This document shows, in pieces, positions 48,682 to 58,583 of a DNA stretch of 64,000 nucleotides. The DNA comes from Xanthomarina gelatinilytica (GTDB lineage Bacteria; Bacteroidota; Bacteroidia; Flavobacteriales; Flavobacteriaceae), in NCBI RefSeq assembly GCF_000348685.1, contig NZ_ANLA01000005.1, forward strand, positions 62,001 to 126,000. The letters run 5' to 3'. The position numbers were made by a program, and so were the translations under genes. Under the pieces are notes generated by a model. It had not been told where the DNA came from and searched no databases. It saw only the letters and a list, made by a program, of their open reading frames with translations. Numbering within the stretch: the stretch's first letter is position 1; the number at the start of each line of letters is the position of its first letter.

Positions 48682-51600
48682 ATGAAACGATTTTTACTAC
48701 TCACGCTATTATTGCTGGCAAGCACAATAGCAATGGCTCAAACCACATGGACTGGTCTTGGAGCTAATTCTAACTGGAACAATACAGACAATTGGAACAC
48801 CAATATTGTCCCTACAGTTACTGATGATGTGATTATTCCAACAGGATTTACAGTTGATGTTAATGTATCAGCCTCCATTAAATCCATTCAGTTACAAGGA
48901 AATTCAACGTTAAATATTGGAAATAATTTAACTTTTACTCAGGCTTCAAATTTTGCTGGTGGCACAACAATTAATTGGAATTCAGGTTATATAACAGGAA
49001 CTTCTACTTCGCTTACCAACAATGGAACAATAGCTGTATTCAATAGCAATGTTTTTCTAGGAAGCTTGACAACACTTATTAATAATGGACAAATAAACTT
49101 TAACGGAACAGGCGATATTTACATTGTAACAGATGCCGTTTTGAACAATGCAATTACTGGTACCATTTCATTTTTAGCAGATGGAGGTAGATTTTCAGAA
49201 TCTGGTAATGGTTCTAACCTATTAACTAACGATGGTCTTATTGTGGTTACCCTTCCTGATGTTAACGACGAAGTCTTTATTAATGCCGAGTTTCAAAATA
49301 ATGATGGAACCATTCAAGTCAACAATGGTATCTTGAATTTTAACAATGGAAGTCTGGATGCTCAAGTATTGACTGATGGGATTTATAATGTGGCATCAAC
49401 AGGCATCATAGATTTTGATAGTGCCATTACCTTAAGTGGAAGTTTATATGGGGCTTTGAACGGTACTATAAATTGGCGAAATAATACCAAGGTAGCTTTG
49501 GGAAATAATGCATATTTTAATTTTACTGGAAATGCAACCATAAATTGGACATCTGGAGCATTGGTTGGTGGAGGCACTTTAACCAATAATTCCGTAATCA
49601 ATCTGTTGACAGGAAATGTTTTTATAAATGATGCTTCAATATTGGAGAATAATTCAGAGATTCGGTTTACTGGAACAGGCGATATTTACATTGGTACTGA
49701 TGGCGTAGTTAACAACACTTCGTTAGGTACCATTTCATTTTTGGCACATGCAGGTAATTTTGTAGAATCAGGAAATGGTACGAACATTTTAACAAACGAC
49801 GGACTAATTGTTGTTGATCTTCCTGATGCTAACGACCAAGTCTATATTTATACTGAGTTTCAAAACAATGATGGCACCATGCAAGTTGATAATGGTATCT
49901 TGAATTTTAGTCATAGTGTTTTAGAAGCCCAAGTATTAACAGATGGTATTTATAATATAACATCAACAGGTACTATAGATTTTGATAGTGCCATCACTTT
50001 AAGCGGAAGTTTAACGGGAACAATAGACGGTACCTTAAATTGGCGAGGCAATACCAATGTAGCAGTAGCTGATACGGCATTTTTTGACTTTACAGGAAAT
50101 GCAACCGTAAGTTGGGTTTCTGGAGCATTAGTAGGTGGAGGTACGTTGACCAATAACTCCACAATTGATGTTTTGGCAAGTAACGTGTTTATTTTTGATG
50201 CATCATCCCTAGAAAATAATTCAGATTTACGATTTACGGGAACAGGTGATATCTACATAAGTGTTGATGCCTTGGTTAACAACACAGCTTTGGGGATTAT
50301 TTCATTTTTGGCGGATGGTGGTAATTTTTCAGAATCGGGAAATGGCACAAACTTATTGACCAACCATGGACTCATTGTTGTTGACCTTCCAGTTGTTAAT
50401 GACCAAGTTTATATCAATACCGAGTTTCAAAATAATGATGGCACCATTCAAGTCAATAATGGTATCTTGAATCTTAATAATAGTGTTTTAGGCGCTCAAG
50501 TATTGACCGATGGAATTTATAATGTGGCAGCAACAGGAACGATAGATTTTGATAATAACATCACCTTAAGCGGAAGCCTATCAGGAACTTTAGACGGTAC
50601 ATTAAATTGGCGAGGCAATACCCATGTAGCCTCTAGTGATACGGCATCCTTTGACTTTTCTGGAAATGCAACCGTTAGTTGGGTGTCTGGGGCATTAGTT
50701 GGTGGAGGTACATTGGCCAATAACTCCACAATTAATCTGTTGACTGGCAACGTATTTATATACGATATGTCCTTGCTATTAAATAATTCTTTATTACAGT
50801 TTATAGGAACTGGAGATATTTATATTGATACAGATGCTGAATTAAGAAATAATGCCTCAGGTCTTATCGATTTTCAGACAAATGGTTCTGGTATTACACC
50901 ATCAGGTAATGGAATTAACCTACTAAATAACCAAGGATTGGTAAAAAACACATCAGGAGGAAATGTGACTATTAGTGCCGAAACTGAAAACTCGGGTACT
51001 ATTGAAGCTACATCAGGTGTATTGAGCATCTCTACGTCATTGGACAATCAAATTGGAGGAAGACTATCAGGAGTTGGAACTATTAACCTACCATCAATTG
51101 CTAACTTAACCAACGATGGAAATGTATCTCCAGGTTTGTCACCAGGAACCTTAACGCTTTCAGGGAATTATTTGTCTTCAAGCAATTCGGTTTTAGAAAT
51201 GGAACTTAACGGACTTACACCTGATACACAGCATGACGTACTTGCTATTTCAGGGACAAACGTGATTTTTGAAGGTATGGTTGATGTTACCTTAGGATTT
51301 CAACCAAGTATAGGAGATACATTTACAATTGCAACAGTAAGTGGTACAATCGCTACAGGAAATCTTGTATCTCCAATTTATGCAGAATACGATTGTTTGC
51401 AATATACATTTGATGTGAGTTATCCAAATAACGATAGTGTTTTGTTAACTGTTTCAGATGAAGCAGATGTACACAATCCTGTTGTTATAACTCAAGATAT
51501 AACTTTAACTCTTGATGCTACTGGAAATGCCAGTATTACTACAAACGATATAGATAATGGATCGACAGATAATTGTGGTATAGACACGATGAGTTTGGAC

Positions 51601-52467
51601 ATGGCAACCTTTACCTGTAACAATTTAGGAGCTAATACAGTAACCTTAACAGTTACAGATGTTAATGGGAATGTAGCTAATAACACCGCAATAGTTACAG
51701 TAGTGGATAATATATTGCCATTGGTTGTCACTCAAGATCTAACAGTGCAATTGGATGCTTTGGGGAATGCAAGCATTACGGCAGCACAAGTGGATAATGG
51801 CTCAAGTGATAATTGCTCCATAGCAAGTTTGGACTTGGATGTTACCGATTTTACCTGTGCCAATTTAGGAACAAATACAGTTACTTTAACAATTACGGAC
51901 CAAAGTGGCAATAGTGCTTCAGCTTCAGCAACAGTGACGGTTGAGGATAACATAGCTCCAACCATAAATTGTCCTTCTGGATTTACAGTAGAATCTAATG
52001 GAGATTTCACTTTACCTGATTATTATTTAGATGGTCTCGTTACAGTTGACGACAACTGTGGTATTAGTAGTGTGGTTCAAACACCATCTGCAGGATCTAT
52101 TTTACCTGATGGATATTATGATATAGATTTTATTGTTACAGATATTTTTGGGAACTCAAAAAGTTGTATGTTTCAAATAAAAGTTGAAGACCTTACCCTA
52201 AATGTCAATGCCTTTGAATTAACAGAATCCCACATTGTATTGTATCCAAATCCGGCAACAAATATGGTAACCCTAAAAAACAATAGCCATGTGAATTTAA
52301 AATCAGCTACAATTATTGATGTCAAAGGAAGTGTCATTCAAAAAATCAATTTGGAAGCTATGGGACCAAAAAAAACCATTTCGTTGCAGGATTATGCAAG
52401 TGGCGTTTATTTTGTAAAGATTTACTCCGAAACCTCTTCCATAGTTAAACGATTGATCAAACAATAA
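48682..52467 (+). CDS. Giant T9SS-secreted beta-repeat protein with HYR-like domains
   Basis: The 1261-residue protein has a signal peptide (KRFLLLTLLLLASTIAMAQ). Residues about 20-140 read like a G8-type beta-helix opening (TTWTGLGANSNWNNTDNW, VPTVTDDVIIPTG). Three near-identical 189-residue units follow, plus a degenerate fourth, rich in NG, GTGDIYI and LTNDGLIVV: a parallel beta-helix look. An SPGLSPGTL segment near residue 820 recalls autotransporter-type stalks. Three HYR/immunoglobulin-like domains (about 933-1012, 1013-1092, 1093-1170) contain DNCxI and LTVTDVNGN motifs. A type A sorting domain begins with IVLYPNPATN near residue 1187. A surface adhesin or matrix role is inferred only from architecture. 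Confidence 0.87.
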   Translation: MKRFLLLTLLLLASTIAMAQTTWTGLGANSNWNNTDNWNTNIVPTVTDDVIIPTGFTVDVNVSASIKSIQLQGNSTLNIGNNLTFTQASNFAGGTTINWNSGYITGTSTSLTNNGTIAVFNSNVFLGSLTTLINNGQINFNGTGDIYIVTDAVLNNAITGTISFLADGGRFSESGNGSNLLTNDGLIVVTLPDVNDEVFINAEFQNNDGTIQVNNGILNFNNGSLDAQVLTDGIYNVASTGIIDFDSAITLSGSLYGALNGTINWRNNTKVALGNNAYFNFTGNATINWTSGALVGGGTLTNNSVINLLTGNVFINDASILENNSEIRFTGTGDIYIGTDGVVNNTSLGTISFLAHAGNFVESGNGTNILTNDGLIVVDLPDANDQVYIYTEFQNNDGTMQVDNGILNFSHSVLEAQVLTDGIYNITSTGTIDFDSAITLSGSLTGTIDGTLNWRGNTNVAVADTAFFDFTGNATVSWVSGALVGGGTLTNNSTIDVLASNVFIFDASSLENNSDLRFTGTGDIYISVDALVNNTALGIISFLADGGNFSESGNGTNLLTNHGLIVVDLPVVNDQVYINTEFQNNDGTIQVNNGILNLNNSVLGAQVLTDGIYNVAATGTIDFDNNITLSGSLSGTLDGTLNWRGNTHVASSDTASFDFSGNATVSWVSGALVGGGTLANNSTINLLTGNVFIYDMSLLLNNSLLQFIGTGDIYIDTDAELRNNASGLIDFQTNGSGITPSGNGINLLNNQGLVKNTSGGNVTISAETENSGTIEATSGVLSISTSLDNQIGGRLSGVGTINLPSIANLTNDGNVSPGLSPGTLTLSGNYLSSSNSVLEMELNGLTPDTQHDVLAISGTNVIFEGMVDVTLGFQPSIGDTFTIATVSGTIATGNLVSPIYAEYDCLQYTFDVSYPNNDSVLLTVSDEADVHNPVVITQDITLTLDATGNASITTNDIDNGSTDNCGIDTMSLDMATFTCNNLGANTVTLTVTDVNGNVANNTAIVTVVDNILPLVVTQDLTVQLDALGNASITAAQVDNGSSDNCSIASLDLDVTDFTCANLGTNTVTLTITDQSGNSASASATVTVEDNIAPTINCPSGFTVESNGDFTLPDYYLDGLVTVDDNCGISSVVQTPSAGSILPDGYYDIDFIVTDIFGNSKSCMFQIKVEDLTLNVNAFELTESHIVLYPNPATNMVTLKNNSHVNLKSATIIDVKGSVIQKINLEAMGPKKTISLQDYASGVYFVKIYSETSSIVKRLIKQ
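49105..50805. repeat. Three tandem 567-bp DNA repeats within the giant T9SS gene
   Basis: The motif GGAACAGG(C/T)GATAT recurs at 49105, 49672 and 50239, exactly 567 bases apart, with a degenerate fourth at 50806. Long stretches are nearly identical between units, so they amplified recently or are kept alike by recombination. Copy number could vary between strains. Confidence 0.93.
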
Positions 52468-52656: not shown

Positions 52657-52688
52657 GAAAAGGGCTGTTATAAAAGACAGCCCTTTTC
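52657..52688. terminator. Bidirectional terminator downstream of the CHAT gene
   Basis: GAAAAGGGCTGT pairs with ACAGCCCTTTTC around an 8-base loop, with A-rich and T-rich sides. On the minus strand it follows the CHAT gene stop by 75 bases. Confidence 0.72.
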
Positions 52689-52762: not shown

Positions 52763-55700
52763 TTATTTGTTACCTTGTCTTTTAAGGATTATTAGCAATA
52801 TTGATAGTATTGCGAAACCAAGGATCCAATATAGATAATTGTTGGAAGTAGTTAGATTGATGGGTGACGTATCGCCAATTAGAACCAATCCAGCCCAATA
52901 TTGTGGATTCATGGTTCGTCCTTTTGCTGTAGTTAAATAACTTAATTTGGCCTGTTGCAAAGCTAGGTCTTTATCCATACCATTTTTGATGTTCTTGTAA
53001 AACAGTTCAATAATTTCGGCACTGGATTGCTCATCCACTTTCCATAAGCTGGTTAAAATGCTTTCGCTTCCAGCATAATTAAAAGCGTGAGCTAAAGATA
53101 TCATTCCTTCACCAGCCTGATATGATGGTTTTCCAGTTTCACAAGCCGTAAGTATCGCCAAATTAGATGATAAATTAATATTGTAAATTTCGTAGGTATA
53201 TAAATAACCATCTTCTTTGGATGACGCGTCTGTTGATTTGGCAAAAACCAGTCTTGAAAGTTCAGGAGATAAGTTATTGGATTCTGCATGTGTGCCAATA
53301 TGGATGATTTTGTGCTCTTTTGCACTGTTTTTAAAAATATGTTCGGTAGAGTTTTCATTTAAAAAAGAGTCGCCATTAAACAGGTGTGAAGATTTTTCTG
53401 CCAAATCTTTGGTAAAAGGTTGTGGCAAAAGGGTTAAATACGCTTTGTCCAAATCTATAGAATCCTTGATTTTAATTTGATACTCTTCTTTCATTTTATC
53501 GTTGAATTCAGGCACAAATGCAATAAAATTTTCTTTATAACCTATGGTTTTGGTTTCGTTGCCCAACAGGAACAAACTGTAATTATATGATACTATGTGT
53601 TTAGCCAACAAGCTGTTAGTGGTAAATTCTGAATAGGACTGTATGGCTTTGTCTGTTAACATTTCAAAACTTAGGTTAAATAATTCGCCATCTGGAATGA
53701 TAATCACTTTTTTGGTTGCGATAGCAGGTTCTAAAGGCTTCCATAGTGTTTTATATAGATTGTATAGATGTATGCCATTGGATTTTATCTGAAATGGATT
53801 TTCAGTCAATTTTAAAATATTGTTTTTTGCAGTCTTGTAGTTTAGTTTAAAAATTTGTTTTCCGTTTTCAGTTAAAACAATGGCATATAGATTGTTGTCG
53901 TTAAATACATAGCGGACAACCGTTGTGTTTTCTGGAATGTGTTTATGCAGTTTATTCAAAGGTTCCTCAATAGAGGCATATCGCATTTTATAGTATTTAG
54001 GGTAGTTGTTCTTCAGGCTATCCAAAAAAGAGTTCCAATTGGAATTAGTATTAAAGAAAGTTTCAAAACTACCATCGGTTGCACTTTCAATGGAAGCATT
54101 CATTTTGCTTTTTAAATAAGTTTCCCTAGCTATTATTTCTTTTGGGATGTTAGCAAAAGCCAAATTGTTTTTAAGGTTCAACCTGGACCTTATACGATTG
54201 TAAACACTGGACTCATGAAGGGTTAAAAACTTTGAAAGGTAGGCTTGGTTGTCTGTTAGGTTGAACAAGTCCAATAAAATTTGTTTGGAAAAATCAAAAA
54301 GCTCATTGTTTTCAGTTATCAGCAAACTTAAATCGTCGTAAGATTTAATAATTTCTTTTCGTTGATTTAATATCGCAATACCATCATTTAATTGGTTTAA
54401 CAGTTCTTTTAAAAAAGTGTCGGTTTTGTTTGTATTTAAATAATAACTGGATTTGGCATTTATTAGTAACGCTTTGGGTTTTCTGTATTGTATTTGTATG
54501 GAATCCGTAAAATTGGTGGTAGTAAGATTTTTGTTGTTTAGCATGTTTAAAGCTTCATTGCTGTACGCTTGTGCATCTTTGTAATGCTTTAGTTTAAAAT
54601 GAACTTCGGCCAAATTTAGAATGTGATGAAAACCTTGCAATGTGTTGTTGAAATCGCTTGTTTTTATAAAATGGTAGCATTCTTCAGCTAAAGATATGGC
54701 TTTTTCGGTATCCTGTATTTTGGCGTAAAATAAGGACATGTCTATCAATTCGTCCAAATAATCCCTTGTATATTCGTTTTTTCCCAAAGATTGTCTGTAT
54801 AAGGAATCGGCTTCTAGAAAATACTTTTTGGCATTTTTAAAATCACCTAGCTCATCACTTATGGTGGCTTTGGTGGATAAGGCGCTGGCATGCCAATAAA
54901 ACTGAGTGTTTTTGCTCGTGTTAATTCTATAAAGAGCCTGGTCTATTAAATTGTTTGCAGCATTAAAATCCCTTAAACCCATTTTTGCCTGTGCCGAAAT
55001 AATTTGTGAAATGGTAATGTTATTGTCTTCAGGAGCTAAGGTTTTCAGTTTTTTTCGATAGGAGTAGGAAATAAGCTCGTCGGCTCTTTCAAATTCCCCA
55101 ATGGAATGATAAAAGGAACCTAAATTGTCAATTGCAGCCAATTGATGCTTTAAAGCCCTTAATTTTTTGGATTCGTCTGTAGAAATTTCTATAAATGTTT
55201 GAAAGCTGGCAATGACTTCTTTTGATGCTTGAATGGCATCATCTACATGGCCTAAGGCATGGTTTAAAACAGCCATGTTCATTTTTACCAATGCAGGACG
55301 ATAATAGGAATTCATAGGGTTTTTTTCAACCTGTTCCAGCATTTTGTAAGCTTGGTTAAAATAGTACAGACTACTATCCAGTTTAGCCGAATACCACATC
55401 ATGCCTCCAAGGGCATTATAGGTTTTATGTAGTGATTCATAGTCTTTTGTTTGCTCTTTTTCCATGGTTTTAATGGACATGGTATACAGTGCTTTAGCCA
55501 TTGCCATATCTCCAAGATTGGATGCCAAATAACCAAGATTATGATATATGCCACTAATGTCAGCTTTCCTTGGGTCTTCAATCTGTTTGGCAATTTCAAG
55601 GGCTTTTTCAACAGTTGTGTAGGCTCTTTTGGTATAACCTGCATCATCATAAATCCAGGCCAATTCCAAGAGTACCTCTTTATCCACAAAAGGAATTTGA

Positions 55701-56008
55701 TACTGGTTTAATTCTTTTCCAAAGGTTTCGGCTCGTTTTATGGCCACATCGTGATTTCCATTGGCCAATTTTAAACTGCCTACCAGAGCGATGTATTTTA
55801 TTAAACTGTCTGTATTTTTTTCCGTGCGATACCTATCAAGTTGTTTCTCTAACTCAATTCTAGCTTCTGTCATTGCCTCTTTGTCCAAAAGTTTTTGAAT
55901 ATAAGCAATGTTTTGAATGTCTGACCCTTGGGACCAAGTGGTATGAAAACTACCTATAAATAGCAAAACAACAAAGATGGTTACTACGTCTTTAAAAATT
56001 GTTTTCAT
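52763..56008 (-). CDS. Exported, membrane-anchored TPR-CHAT (caspase-like) protease
   Basis: The 1081-residue protein has a signal peptide (KDVVTIFVVLLFIGSFHTTWS), about 500 residues of tetratricopeptide helices (e.g. DISGIYHNLGYLASNLGDMAMAK), a linker, and a CHAT domain at about 750-1040. The catalytic dyad is visible: His907 in HIGTHAES and Cys956 in LTACETGKPSYQAGEGM, followed by the family-typical SLWKVDEQSSAEIIELFY. A C-terminal helix (about 1057-1075) precedes RQGNK, so both TPR and CHAT should face the periplasm with the tail in the cytoplasm. It is the last gene after sigma and anti-sigma genes, 11 bases downstream, so the three are one operon. Proteolysis of a partner is inferred. 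Confidence 0.88.
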   Translation of the reverse strand: MKTIFKDVVTIFVVLLFIGSFHTTWSQGSDIQNIAYIQKLLDKEAMTEARIELEKQLDRYRTEKNTDSLIKYIALVGSLKLANGNHDVAIKRAETFGKELNQYQIPFVDKEVLLELAWIYDDAGYTKRAYTTVEKALEIAKQIEDPRKADISGIYHNLGYLASNLGDMAMAKALYTMSIKTMEKEQTKDYESLHKTYNALGGMMWYSAKLDSSLYYFNQAYKMLEQVEKNPMNSYYRPALVKMNMAVLNHALGHVDDAIQASKEVIASFQTFIEISTDESKKLRALKHQLAAIDNLGSFYHSIGEFERADELISYSYRKKLKTLAPEDNNITISQIISAQAKMGLRDFNAANNLIDQALYRINTSKNTQFYWHASALSTKATISDELGDFKNAKKYFLEADSLYRQSLGKNEYTRDYLDELIDMSLFYAKIQDTEKAISLAEECYHFIKTSDFNNTLQGFHHILNLAEVHFKLKHYKDAQAYSNEALNMLNNKNLTTTNFTDSIQIQYRKPKALLINAKSSYYLNTNKTDTFLKELLNQLNDGIAILNQRKEIIKSYDDLSLLITENNELFDFSKQILLDLFNLTDNQAYLSKFLTLHESSVYNRIRSRLNLKNNLAFANIPKEIIARETYLKSKMNASIESATDGSFETFFNTNSNWNSFLDSLKNNYPKYYKMRYASIEEPLNKLHKHIPENTTVVRYVFNDNNLYAIVLTENGKQIFKLNYKTAKNNILKLTENPFQIKSNGIHLYNLYKTLWKPLEPAIATKKVIIIPDGELFNLSFEMLTDKAIQSYSEFTTNSLLAKHIVSYNYSLFLLGNETKTIGYKENFIAFVPEFNDKMKEEYQIKIKDSIDLDKAYLTLLPQPFTKDLAEKSSHLFNGDSFLNENSTEHIFKNSAKEHKIIHIGTHAESNNLSPELSRLVFAKSTDASSKEDGYLYTYEIYNINLSSNLAILTACETGKPSYQAGEGMISLAHAFNYAGSESILTSLWKVDEQSSAEIIELFYKNIKNGMDKDLALQQAKLSYLTTAKGRTMNPQYWAGLVLIGDTSPINLTTSNNYLYWILGFAILSILLIILKRQGNK

Positions 56009-56019
56009 AATAGGTAAGG

Positions 56020-56757
56020 TTAATCCTCTAACTCAGAAAGTATGGTTTTGCTATCAGCCATATTGCTTTGTTTAAGGGTTTCTTTTGCAAGTTCTATTTT
56101 GTTATTTTTCAAATAGGCTAATCCCAAGTAATAAAAAGCATCATTTTTAAAAGCACTTTCTTTAAGTTCCGTTACTTTTTCCAAGTAGCTAATGGCTGTG
56201 GTTGTTTCTCCCTTGGCCAAATAAGCCGAACCCATAAAATAATTAAGCGTATCGTTTTCAGGTTTGTTTGTTAACAAGGGTTGCCATTTGTTAATGGCCA
56301 ATTGGTAGTCCTGTCTTTTGTAATTTACCATGGCATCATAAAACACAAAATTGTCTTGAGTGCTCATGGTAGTTGGTAAACCTGGATCTGGAGCGTAATA
56401 TTTGCTGTATAATTTAGAGTTGGAATTTCCGTTGAAAAACCAGAAACTTCCAACAGCAATTATTACTGCTGCAGCTGCTACCCACTTCCTAAAGTCCAAA
56501 TGTCTTACTTTTGAAGGTTGTTCCATAGGGCTTTTGGTATCTGGGAGTTCGTTATGGAATGTCTCAATTTTCTCTGTTAGAGCTTGTGTTTCTATCCCTA
56601 AAAGCAAAGTTTTGATATCTTCCACCTGATTTTTAAAATCGGGATTATTGTTAAGTTTTTCTTCAAAACCGGCTAGTTCATCAGGTGTCATATTATTATT
56701 GATATAACGCTCAATGTATTCTAATTCCTCTTGGGTTATGTTGTAATTTGGGTTCAT
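56020..56757 (-). CDS. Membrane-spanning TPR protein, probable anti-sigma factor
   Basis: The 245-residue product has a cytoplasmic-looking N-terminal part of about 88 residues (ITQEELEYIERYINNNMTPDEL, then FEEKLNNNPDFKNQVED), which resembles the start of Bacteroidota anti-sigma proteins. One membrane helix lies at about 91-108 (KWVAAAAVIIAVGSFWFF), and a C-terminal domain of about three TPRs (YQLAINKWQPLL, GSAYLAKGETTTAISYLEKV, YYLGLAYLKNNKIELAKETL). With the usual topology the TPRs face the periplasm. It lies 4 bases after the ECF sigma gene and 11 before the CHAT gene. Anti-sigma function is inferred from position and shape; no zinc motif is present. Confidence 0.75.
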   Translation of the reverse strand: MNPNYNITQEELEYIERYINNNMTPDELAGFEEKLNNNPDFKNQVEDIKTLLLGIETQALTEKIETFHNELPDTKSPMEQPSKVRHLDFRKWVAAAAVIIAVGSFWFFNGNSNSKLYSKYYAPDPGLPTTMSTQDNFVFYDAMVNYKRQDYQLAINKWQPLLTNKPENDTLNYFMGSAYLAKGETTTAISYLEKVTELKESAFKNDAFYYLGLAYLKNNKIELAKETLKQSNMADSKTILSELED

Positions 56758-56761
56758 GCTA

Positions 56762-57337
56762 TTATCTCTTTTTCAAGGCCAATTCTCTTAATTTTTGCAT
56801 GCATCTATATTTTTTGTTTCTGGTAGATGCTGCGTCCAATTGCAGCTCTTCTGCAATGGTGTTCATGGATTTTTTTTCAAAATAAAATTTTGTCAATAAA
56901 TCTTTGCAAGGCAAGCCTAAGTCTTTAAAGGCTTGCATGACACCTTGTAATCGGTTTTCTTTTAAAATGTCATCATGGGATTCTTGGGTTTCTTTGTTTG
57001 AAATTTCAAAATGATTTAATTTAGAGGCAACCACTGTTTTTTTATAATGTTTAGAGCGTAAATGGTCCATCCACTTGTTTTTGGAAATGGTGTATAAATA
57101 ACCGTTTAAGGAATGATTGTTTTGTGGTGTGAACTTGTTGGTTTTTACATTGTTCCAAACTGTTATAAAAGCTTCTTGATAAACATCCTTTGCATGTTCC
57201 TTAGTGCCACTGTTTTTTAAAACAAAAGCTTCCACTTTATGAAAATTGCTTTGATACAGTGATTTTAAAACACGCTCATCATTGTTTTTTATGAGCTCTA
57301 TAATTTGCGAGCTGTTTATATCTGTAAGTGTATTCAA
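56762..57337 (-). CDS. ECF-type RNA polymerase sigma factor
   Basis: This 191-residue protein has sigma region 2 (VEAFVLKNSGTKEHAKDVYQ, EAFITVWNNV, LNGYLYTISKNKWMDHLRSK) and region 4 with a helix-turn-helix (KSMNTIAEELQLDAASTRNKKYRCMQKL split over the two helices), separated by a linker and lacking regions 1 and 3. The start is TTG at 57337: upstream there is an in-frame stop with no ATG. A TATCTTTA element (57366-57373, minus strand) is a one-mismatch -7 match. Its targets are unknown; control of its own operon is the simplest guess. Confidence 0.88.
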   Translation of the reverse strand: MNTLTDINSSQIIELIKNNDERVLKSLYQSNFHKVEAFVLKNSGTKEHAKDVYQEAFITVWNNVKTNKFTPQNNHSLNGYLYTISKNKWMDHLRSKHYKKTVVASKLNHFEISNKETQESHDDILKENRLQGVMQAFKDLGLPCKDLLTKFYFEKKSMNTIAEELQLDAASTRNKKYRCMQKLRELALKKR

Positions 57338-57440: not shown

Positions 57441-58583
57441 TTAATAACCATTATCAGTTTCTTCCAAGTGTTGCCAATTATAGTTGTTGGTAGTGTTGTC
57501 TGTATTTGGATTCCATAACGAATTGTCTGTTGCTATATAATCGTTATTATGGTTCATCCATACATTGTTTTCATAGCCATCTACTTTATAAATGTTTCCA
57601 GAGGCATCTGTCATGTTTCTTCTTTCGTAAATACCATCTATATATTTTGCATGACCAGCATCAGATGCTGCCTGATTGCTTCTCCAAGCATTGTATTGGT
57701 TGTCCATAGCCTGACTTCTGGCTCTTCCTGCCGCCAGGATTTGCTGTCCTTGTGCCTGGATGCTTGCCATGCGTTGTTGGTGTGCAGCATTGCTTTGTTG
57801 AGCTGCTTGCGCATAATATTGATTGTTTGTCTGGACCCATTGCGGATTTATCTGGAAGTTTATCAAGGCATTTATATAGGTGTTTTTGGCACTCTCGTAT
57901 TCAGCTTTTGGCGCTTCCAAACTGTTTAGGGTGTAGCCCCAATCCAATCCACCAATGCTGGTATATTGCGCTATGAAATAACGAACAATTACCATGGATA
58001 ACTTGCCATCTGGACCTTCCCACTCTGTAACCACACAATCTGTTTGTCTTTGTTCTGGTGTGGATTTAAACAAATAACTGTTAAATTGTTTATCAAATTG
58101 AGCCAGTTGAGGTAATGGAAATTGATTGATGTATCTACCTCCTTGAGATTCTATAAAGGGTTTTAATTCTTCATTTATAAGTAGCTGTAAACTTTTTATT
58201 GGTTTTACATTGCCTCCACTTTGCAAGGTAAATTGATTCCTTTGTGGACTGTTTGAATAAAAGAACGAATTGAAAATCTCGTTGTAAACTTTCACACCAT
58301 TGGGCGCTTCAAATAAAATGTTTTCGGCATTTGCTTCTTTTTTTTTCCAAGTGCTTGGAATTGGCATAACTCCAATGGGCATCCCAAATTGTTTGTTCAT
58401 CACGTAATAAGGTTTCAAACCTTGGTTTCCAGTGTTGTTTTGTTCGGAAATGGCTGCTTGGTCGTTCAGTTTGTTTTCGGTATCAAAACTGTATTCTTGC
58501 AGTGTGGTGTTCTCTTTATCTTCGCCACAGGAATTTAGTAAAATAAGGATAAAAAGTAACCAAAGGATGTTAAAGCGTTTCAT
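57441..58583 (-). CDS. Lipoprotein of unknown function upstream of the sigma/CHAT operon
   Basis: The 380-residue product has a lipoprotein signal (FNILWLLFILILLNSC, then GEDKEN). A globular middle part starts FGMPIGVMPIPSTWKKK and includes VVTEWEGPDGKLSMVIVRYF. A Gln/Ala-rich helical part (about 255-310: QYYAQAAQQSNAAHQQRMA, QAQGQQILAAGRARSQAMDN) probably forms a coiled coil, and the Asn/Tyr/Trp-rich end reads YKVDGYENNVWMNHNNDY. I recognise no family. It is on the same strand as, and 103 bases ahead of, the ECF sigma gene, so it could be part of that system or a target of it. Confidence 0.78.
   Translation of the reverse strand: MKRFNILWLLFILILLNSCGEDKENTTLQEYSFDTENKLNDQAAISEQNNTGNQGLKPYYVMNKQFGMPIGVMPIPSTWKKKEANAENILFEAPNGVKVYNEIFNSFFYSNSPQRNQFTLQSGGNVKPIKSLQLLINEELKPFIESQGGRYINQFPLPQLAQFDKQFNSYLFKSTPEQRQTDCVVTEWEGPDGKLSMVIVRYFIAQYTSIGGLDWGYTLNSLEAPKAEYESAKNTYINALINFQINPQWVQTNNQYYAQAAQQSNAAHQQRMASIQAQGQQILAAGRARSQAMDNQYNAWRSNQAASDAGHAKYIDGIYERRNMTDASGNIYKVDGYENNVWMNHNNDYIATDNSLWNPNTDNTTNNYNWQHLEETDNGY

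Follow-up and report, generated by a model that had tools for sequence, protein, structure and literature searches.

What could a sigma factor gene have to do with a protease, predicted to be exported, that is encoded further down the same operon? The question is raised by a locus of Xanthomarina gelatinilytica (Bacteroidota, Flavobacteriaceae), in the stretch of 64,000 nucleotides analysed here and called the window (assembly GCF_000348685.1, contig NZ_ANLA01000005.1, positions 62,001 to 126,000). Three minus-strand genes separated by gaps of 4 and 11 bases, as an earlier sequence-only reading had stated, encode an extracytoplasmic function (ECF) sigma factor, a candidate anti-sigma factor with tetratricopeptide repeats (TPRs) and a TPR-CHAT protease. 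We propose, with a probability of roughly 0.7, that this operon is a transmembrane signalling cassette in which the separase-type CHAT, tethered in the periplasm, would cut the anti-sigma factor after M131 and so free the sigma factor. We infer the cut and its position, as well as the binding and the release of the sigma factor. The argument draws on the following features, in window coordinates.

56762..57337, minus strand: ECF sigma factor, 191 amino acids, TTG start (profile matches)
56020..56757, minus strand: anti-sigma candidate, 245 amino acids, with a cytoplasmic N-terminal domain, one transmembrane segment and predicted periplasmic TPRs (profiles, hydropathy, partnership with sigma factor and CHAT)
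56428..56484, minus strand: anti-sigma transmembrane segment, residues 92-110 (hydropathy)
56362..56391, minus strand: membrane-proximal anti-sigma motif PDPGLPTTMS, residues 123-132, proposed cut M131/S132 (conservation, orphan decay)
52763..56008, minus strand: TPR-CHAT protease, 1081 amino acids, predicted to be exported, with a C-terminal membrane anchor (profile, hydropathy, fold match)
52871..53761, minus strand: CHAT (separase/caspase-like) domain, residues 750-1046 (PF12770 match)
53402..53404, minus strand: Leu869 codon, S1-type position of helix alpha-1, occupied by Glu in Arg-type relatives (alignment, model)
53288..53290, minus strand: catalytic His907 codon (codon read, conservation)
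53141..53143, minus strand: catalytic Cys956 codon (codon read, conservation)
53030..53032, minus strand: Glu993 codon, directly after strand beta-5, Asp in Arg-type relatives (alignment, model)
52784..52840, minus strand: C-terminal transmembrane anchor of the CHAT, residues 1057-1075 (hydropathy)

The first product had been read as an ECF sigma factor, and its profile matches agree: Pfam Sigma70_r2 (42.9 bits) and TIGR02937 sigma70-ECF (66.8 bits, cut-off 42.9). It scored below cut-off against the narrower TIGR02985 (74.9 bits, cut-off 126.4) and against the type III-E sigma family NF041236 (38.1 bits, cut-off 100). The anti-sigma candidate follows directly after the sigma gene and has the build of a single-span anti-sigma factor, with a cytosolic N-terminal domain and one hydrophobic segment (residues 92-110). 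Five Lys or Arg residues lie in the stretch before this segment and two after it; because of this excess the TPRs should stand outside the membrane, an orientation taken from charge only. Against the curated anti-sigma profile NF052375 the candidate stayed below cut-off (19.5 bits, cut-off 100, E 8e-4), and a profile search of the PDB returned mainly TPR proteins among the best 60 of 68 matches. The third product is a CHAT peptidase by its PF12770 match (143.7 bits, cut-off 24) and its His/Cys dyad. The codons of His907 and Cys956 are intact, as had been claimed, and the dyad is retained in all 114 related CHATs compared (45/45 and 69/69 in the two sets introduced below).

Hydropathy gives the CHAT an N-terminal hydrophobic segment (residues 3-21), by inspection a signal peptide, and a second segment at residues 1057-1075, followed by the basic tail LKRQGNK. 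From these segments and the tail, the CHAT is best read as being exported and anchored in the inner membrane at its C-terminal end. The sequence-only reading had seen the signal peptide and missed the C-terminal anchor; its periplasmic placement of the CHAT and of the anti-sigma TPRs agrees with the predictions from hydropathy and charge. It had also drawn a parallel to Csx29, and solved Csx29/TPR-CHAT structures are indeed among the best fold matches of the window CHAT, which shows a Csx29-like fold. In PDB sequence searches the CHAT domain alone led to Csx29/TPR-CHAT chains, and the whole-CHAT alignment found TPR proteins among the best 60 of 217 matches.

Is the trio more than a chance arrangement? 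This genome (3.05 Mb, 21 sigma-70 region-2 matches) holds four CHATs and four full-length TPR anti-sigma copies, and every CHAT comes with a sigma/TPR-anti-sigma pair. The pair adjoins the CHAT at three loci, co-directional in the window and convergent with overlapping ends at the two others; at the fourth, a divergent gene cluster intervenes, and the distances are 4.7 kb to the sigma gene and about 5.3 kb to the anti-sigma gene. Among 60 genomes of the family, 19 have CHAT and anti-sigma, 6 CHAT only, 3 anti-sigma only and 32 neither; a CHAT stands no more than 10 kb from 25 of the 32 full-length anti-sigma matches, and an anti-sigma no more than 10 kb from 26 of the 37 CHATs. Neither was found in G038, of the same genus. 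Across 397 family genomes the window-type anti-sigma occurs in 51 and matches of its CHAT search in 50, with 45 genomes shared, one of which (G036) has a sister-type CHAT only; four of the five CHAT-only genomes (G026, G365, G367, G476) also carry a sister-type CHAT.

Relatives of the window CHAT were collected from the best 80 of 576 stretches, which gave 79 loci. At least 60 of these carry the sigma, anti-sigma and CHAT genes side by side in one order and one direction, separated by gaps whose medians are 4 and 5 bases. In 7 others the pair stands at another place of the fetched stretch, in 10 the stretch holds no pair, and 2 start at a contig edge. A phylum sample of 80 regions, chosen to cover the genera among the listed matches of a 198-genome search, yielded 84 CHAT frames longer than 600 amino acids (one region, L102, gave no CHAT frame in the scan). 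An anti-sigma match lies within 1.7 kb of at least 26 of these 84 and within 6 kb of at least 38. Rows excluded from the comparisons were CHAT reading frames of 600 amino acids or fewer, anti-sigma matches worse than 1e-20 (L082, L140) and L088, with its anti-sigma 7.5 kb off; some genomes are present twice (the window, as L008; also, among others, L062/L175, L056/L182 and L252/L214). The 26 linked CHATs belong to families f1, f4, f5, f8, f15, f20, f22, f33 and f37 and show four layouts, in one of which the CHAT stands between sigma and anti-sigma; eleven more families carry CHATs, none with such an anti-sigma neighbour in this sample. In a midpoint-rooted tree of the CHAT domain the layouts are intermixed within a single large clade, and L116, L117 and L137 represent at least one further occurrence, set apart within a clade of mostly unanchored CHATs. 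Given this conservation, the adjacency is not chance and the trio is a conserved module; the three-gene order, for which a search across Bacteroidota had been suggested, does recur there.

How far does the membrane anchor go with the partnership? Among 117 CHATs longer than 600 amino acids, a C-terminal transmembrane segment was found in 45 of the 46 with an anti-sigma match within 1.7 kb and in 21 of the 71 others. The sole unanchored CHAT near an anti-sigma (L140) has by inspection a lipoprotein-type signal sequence instead, and its anti-sigma is a weak match (7e-11) with no evident TPRs. L113, L130, L131, L139 and L140 all have a CHAT beside a sigma factor and an anti-sigma candidate without evident TPRs, and the candidates of L113, L130 and L131 end in a GLYYWKLE-type domain. 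A separate CHAT clade spans several families (L093, L097, L098, L101, L109, L123, L136, L142); no sigma/anti-sigma was found near its CHATs, all eight were scored as anchored by the end-of-protein scan (L123 doubtfully), and some adjoin, by eye, a MurQ-like gene. Tandem CHAT gene pairs stand beside one sigma/anti-sigma pair at L056 (5646-12202) and L073 (6636-12641), and the CHAT of L063 (9451-12663) is in two reading frames, as if decaying.

Where on the anti-sigma factor might such a protease act? In 43 anti-sigmas of the Arg- and Lys-type clades (R/K clades; mean pairwise identity 0.22), conservation peaks at a basic residue (Arg in 41, Lys in 2), which lies 34-43 residues past a conserved transmembrane Ala, outside the membrane and before the TPRs. 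The residue after it is G in 24, S in 12, D in 3, N in 2, T in 1 and A in 1. In the window's clade all 71 intact anti-sigmas have Met at that site, followed by S (49) or G (22), and D124, G126, L127 and M131 of the PDPGLPTTM motif are present in 61/61. These counts hold few repeats: with duplicates set aside, 65 of the 69 CHATs and 70 of the 71 intact anti-sigmas remain in the Met clade, and the R/K clades retain their full 45 CHATs and 43 anti-sigmas. In the five CHAT-linked anti-sigmas without evident TPRs, an R with S or G directly behind it was seen by eye on the outer side of the membrane, at varying distance. A model of the fused sigma and anti-sigma factors (mean per-residue confidence, pLDDT, 88.9; predicted template modelling score, pTM, 0.63) places the motif (model residues 316-324) in a coil that separates the juxtamembrane helix (304-312) from the first TPR helix (329 onwards). 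The motif Met lies in a block of mean confidence 71 flanked by blocks of 94, and TPR folds of the PDB match the model only from about residue 323 on; Foldseek returned weak matches for the fusion, none with an E value up to 0.001.

The protease differs between the same two classes, which were defined by clade and not by residue. Position 869 of the CHAT, in model helix alpha-1, is Glu in 44/45 proteins of the R/K clades and acidic in none of the 69 Met-clade proteins (L 54, I 6, V 6, and one each of A, F and T); position 993, directly after strand beta-5, is Asp in 44/45 and Glu in 68/69, the Met-clade set including L059, with its anti-sigma elsewhere in the genome, and L200, whose frame ends before 993. 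It is in this helix that Arg-specific clan-CD peptidases bind P1 Arg: according to PMC4626109, gingipain R and MALT1 do so through an acidic residue of helix alpha-1, and the equivalent position of separases is occupied by Glu or Asp. The lone R/K-clade exception at both sites, L071, combines M869 and E993 with an anti-sigma that has K, and the second K-type anti-sigma, L037, pairs with E869 and D993. Since the closest sister loci (L042, L045, L241, L243) keep E and D, with R in the anti-sigma where one is present, and since L085, from another family and basal in the Met clade, has both pocket changes, the motif and pocket switches fall on the same branch in this sample. E869 is found in 50 of 55 CHATs without a nearby TPR anti-sigma (L059 is among the five others), so that a preference for Arg would be the default of the CHAT family. 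Position 993 was also considered as the equivalent of separase D2151 and dropped: K670, the stated equivalent of D2151, aligns to window residue 997. The joint change of motif and pocket suggests a functional pairing, to the degree weighed below.

What becomes of the site when the protease is lost? Six genomes keep a full-length anti-sigma frame at the syntenic place without an intact CHAT (L230, L231, L235, L236, L237 and L238, the last retaining a 113-amino-acid CHAT remnant); L232, with its CHAT cut by a contig end, and L233 and G442, with a CHAT elsewhere in the genome, were not taken as orphans. The six orphans keep 25/48 of the conserved positions in the motif, compared with 135/156 in the TPRs (p 3e-6) and 38/48 in the cytosolic domain (p 0.009), Fisher values that overstate because the sequences are kin. 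M131 is kept in one of the six. The motif loss is partly general decay, since the sigma gene was not found in L231, L236 and L237, is split in L238 and is lower-scoring in L230 and L235. That orphans keep the TPRs hints that these repeats may do more than serve the cut. The sequence-only reading had the CHAT cutting or unlocking the TPR domain of the anti-sigma factor. Action on the anti-sigma is favoured by a membrane-proximal site that covaries with protease pocket residues and decays on protease loss; the likely target is this short motif between membrane and TPRs, and not the TPR domain.

In the mechanism that we favour, the N-terminal domain of the TPR anti-sigma factor would hold the ECF sigma factor at the inner membrane, and the TPR-CHAT, a separase-type cysteine protease, would be exported to the periplasm and tethered there by its own C-terminal transmembrane segment. 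Upon an envelope signal, the CHAT would cut the anti-sigma in the linker that leads to the TPRs, some 20 residues from the membrane on its outer side: at M131/S132 in PDPGLPTTM-S here, and after Arg or Lys in most related systems. The CHAT would be the dedicated site-1 protease of this anti-sigma, and an RseP-type intramembrane protease might finish the trimmed protein, thereby freeing the sigma factor. An RseP-family gene is present in the genome (TIGR00054, 210.2 bits, cut-off 147.55).

Several observations weigh against proteolysis at this site. No TPR anti-sigma lies within 1.7 kb of 21 of the 66 anchored CHATs, 8 of which have the pair 2-6 kb off. Seven f22 anti-sigmas that lie 2.5-4 kb from an unanchored CHAT carry R at the site, so the conserved R is not tied to the anchored CHAT type. 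The switch to Met and a non-acidic pocket is essentially one event on the tree, with L071 at most a partial second case, and about thirty other CHAT columns differ between the clades; for these reasons the joint change is only suggestive, and it could be ordinary clade divergence. By sequence alignment there is no acidic counterpart of separase D2151, and Craspase is described as tolerating varied P1 residues (PMC11106740). Relaxed selection may contribute to motif loss in the orphans, four of six having the sigma gene missing or split, though the TPRs stay. Finally, two Arg-type orphans, G003 and G058, keep R-G with no CHAT detected in drafts that are both about 80% complete; the G003 contig spans the expected CHAT place, and the CHAT is missing there.

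Could the motif be bound by the protease and never cut? The explanation that survives best after ours, improbable as we judge it, takes the motif as an uncut pseudosubstrate in the CHAT active site, with the anti-sigma restraining the protease and being released together with the sigma factor. It would predict the same motif conservation and joint pocket change, and it has a precedent in separase, whose fold the CHAT shares and which is held by securin (PMC9729208). However, the conserved R or M is directly followed by a small residue, mostly G or S, which has the look of a bond that can be cut, and a membrane-bound anti-sigma with a cytosolic domain fits signal relay better. We give little credence to a non-proteolytic sensor complex of CHAT and anti-sigma formed by contact between their TPRs, in which the motif would be a docking patch and the sigma factor would be released by a conformational change or a general site-1 protease. 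Both partners do have TPRs, and Craspase binds Csx30 independently of activation, according to PMC10028731; yet a complex of this kind would leave unaccounted for a catalytic dyad retained in 114/114 CHATs and a motif conservation focused on one residue plus a small one. Very improbable is that the CHAT is merely an output of the sigma factor, a co-transcribed secreted protease with other substrates, and that the motif serves sigma or TPR structure: other CHATs do adjoin other genes, a lipoprotein gene is a frequent neighbour (at least 36/79 loci) and the two R-type anti-sigmas without a detected CHAT keep R-G, but the window-clade motif decays on CHAT loss while the TPRs stay, the CHAT is often transcribed apart from the sigma gene (convergent, divergent) and still linked, and the motif lies almost wholly outside the TPR fold.

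The lipoprotein gene stands upstream of the sigma gene in the window.

57441..58583, minus strand: lipoprotein, recurrent neighbour of the window's CHAT clade (no family match over cut-off)

It is present in 29 of the 60 complete trios and directly precedes the CHAT in 6 of the 10 loci without sigma/anti-sigma in the fetched stretch. The lipobox Cys19 is invariant in 17/17 aligned lipoproteins (window, L059, L060 and relatives), and the family had no Pfam or NCBIfam match over cut-off. On the other side, a large repetitive protein with a type IX secretion tail (48682-52467) adjoins the trio, with at least 32 protein matches in the 79 loci; between this gene and the CHAT a hairpin with a short T run (52658-52687) was seen by eye and was not listed by the terminator scan. 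Each of the two convergent trios in this genome has a collagen-like GxY lipoprotein gene on the far side of its sigma gene (L005 13011-13604, L006 14839-15426), a possible member of the regulon. At L007 (5126-8860) the fourth CHAT of the genome is followed, by eye, by a retropepsin-like gene and a LuxR-type response regulator, and G003 (L227) keeps the retropepsin-like gene without a CHAT there.

CHAT proteases have been met in cytosolic defence systems and are related to separase, and we know of no assigned substrate for the many members in Bacteroidota. Our reading provides a predicted substrate, bond and specificity code for a large CHAT family, and it suggests how signals from the envelope might be passed on to transcription in this phylum. 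A wider proposal is far more tentative, and we regard it as rather doubtful. Under it, periplasmic separases tethered to the membrane would form a family that extends across the phylum, and each would serve a single anti-sigma factor, its own, as dedicated site-1 protease. Specificity would lie in one residue that varies by lineage, Arg being the default and Met the form of the window's clade, and one or two residues of the pocket would read it. The proposal further takes the output of type III-E CRISPR (protease, inhibitor and sigma factor) to be a cytoplasmic form of this envelope-signalling cassette, which would be the older of the two. In the open-licence literature searched on the link between CHAT and sigma factors, no publication on the sigma/anti-sigma/CHAT trio was found by title. 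A defence-island reading was rejected, with no PADLOC family match for any of four proteins at E 0.01 and no RAMP family in the genome, which leaves an analogy only.

How, then, does the trio compare with known systems? In the ECF54 group, CHAT, subtilase and carboxypeptidase genes lie near ECF sigma genes and proteolysis has been proposed (PMC8999054). CHAT proteins conserved near ECF sigma genes are common to both; ECF54 is described there without an anti-sigma factor, whereas here a membrane TPR anti-sigma is the regular partner, and it is by this description that we set the two apart. Bacterial caspase systems (EACC2/TRADD-N) unite a caspase-fold protease, an ECF sigma factor and a TPR (DUF1822) protein in one neighbourhood (PMC8195603); compared by description only, they differ in that no membrane TPR anti-sigma or CHAT figures in that account. 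Unlike eukaryotic separase, the window protein is bacterial, predicted to be exported and membrane-tethered, and non-acidic by alignment at the D2151 equivalent, and its clade is predicted to prefer Met.

Anti-sigma factors are often freed by a periplasmic cut and then RseP, as outlined in PMC10028731. The window trio resembles RseA/DegS/RseP in its single-span anti-sigma, its expected periplasmic site-1 cut and the presence of an RseP-family gene. The difference is that a CHAT cysteine protease, dedicated to the anti-sigma whose gene adjoins its own, would act here as site-1 protease in place of DegS.

Type III-E CRISPR Craspase (Csx29, Csx30 and CASP-sigma/RpoE) resembles the trio in gene content: a single locus encodes an ECF sigma factor, an inhibitor that binds it and a TPR-CHAT protease, and in Craspase the sigma factor is relieved when the inhibitor is cut (PMC10028731). 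Here, however, the protease and its proposed site are predicted to be periplasmic, both partners appear to be membrane-anchored, the proposed inhibitor is a TPR protein with a transmembrane segment, and there is one conserved P1-like residue, in contrast to the Craspase sites, reported as non-conserved (PMC11106740). No PF03787 RAMP match was found in this genome (a 99.98% complete draft), which thus has no match for the gRAMP/Cas7-11 part of Craspase. By analogy, the trio would work like the output of Craspase and is not CRISPR, the defining parts being absent; as a non-CRISPR system resembling that output, it is useful for asking where the output came from.

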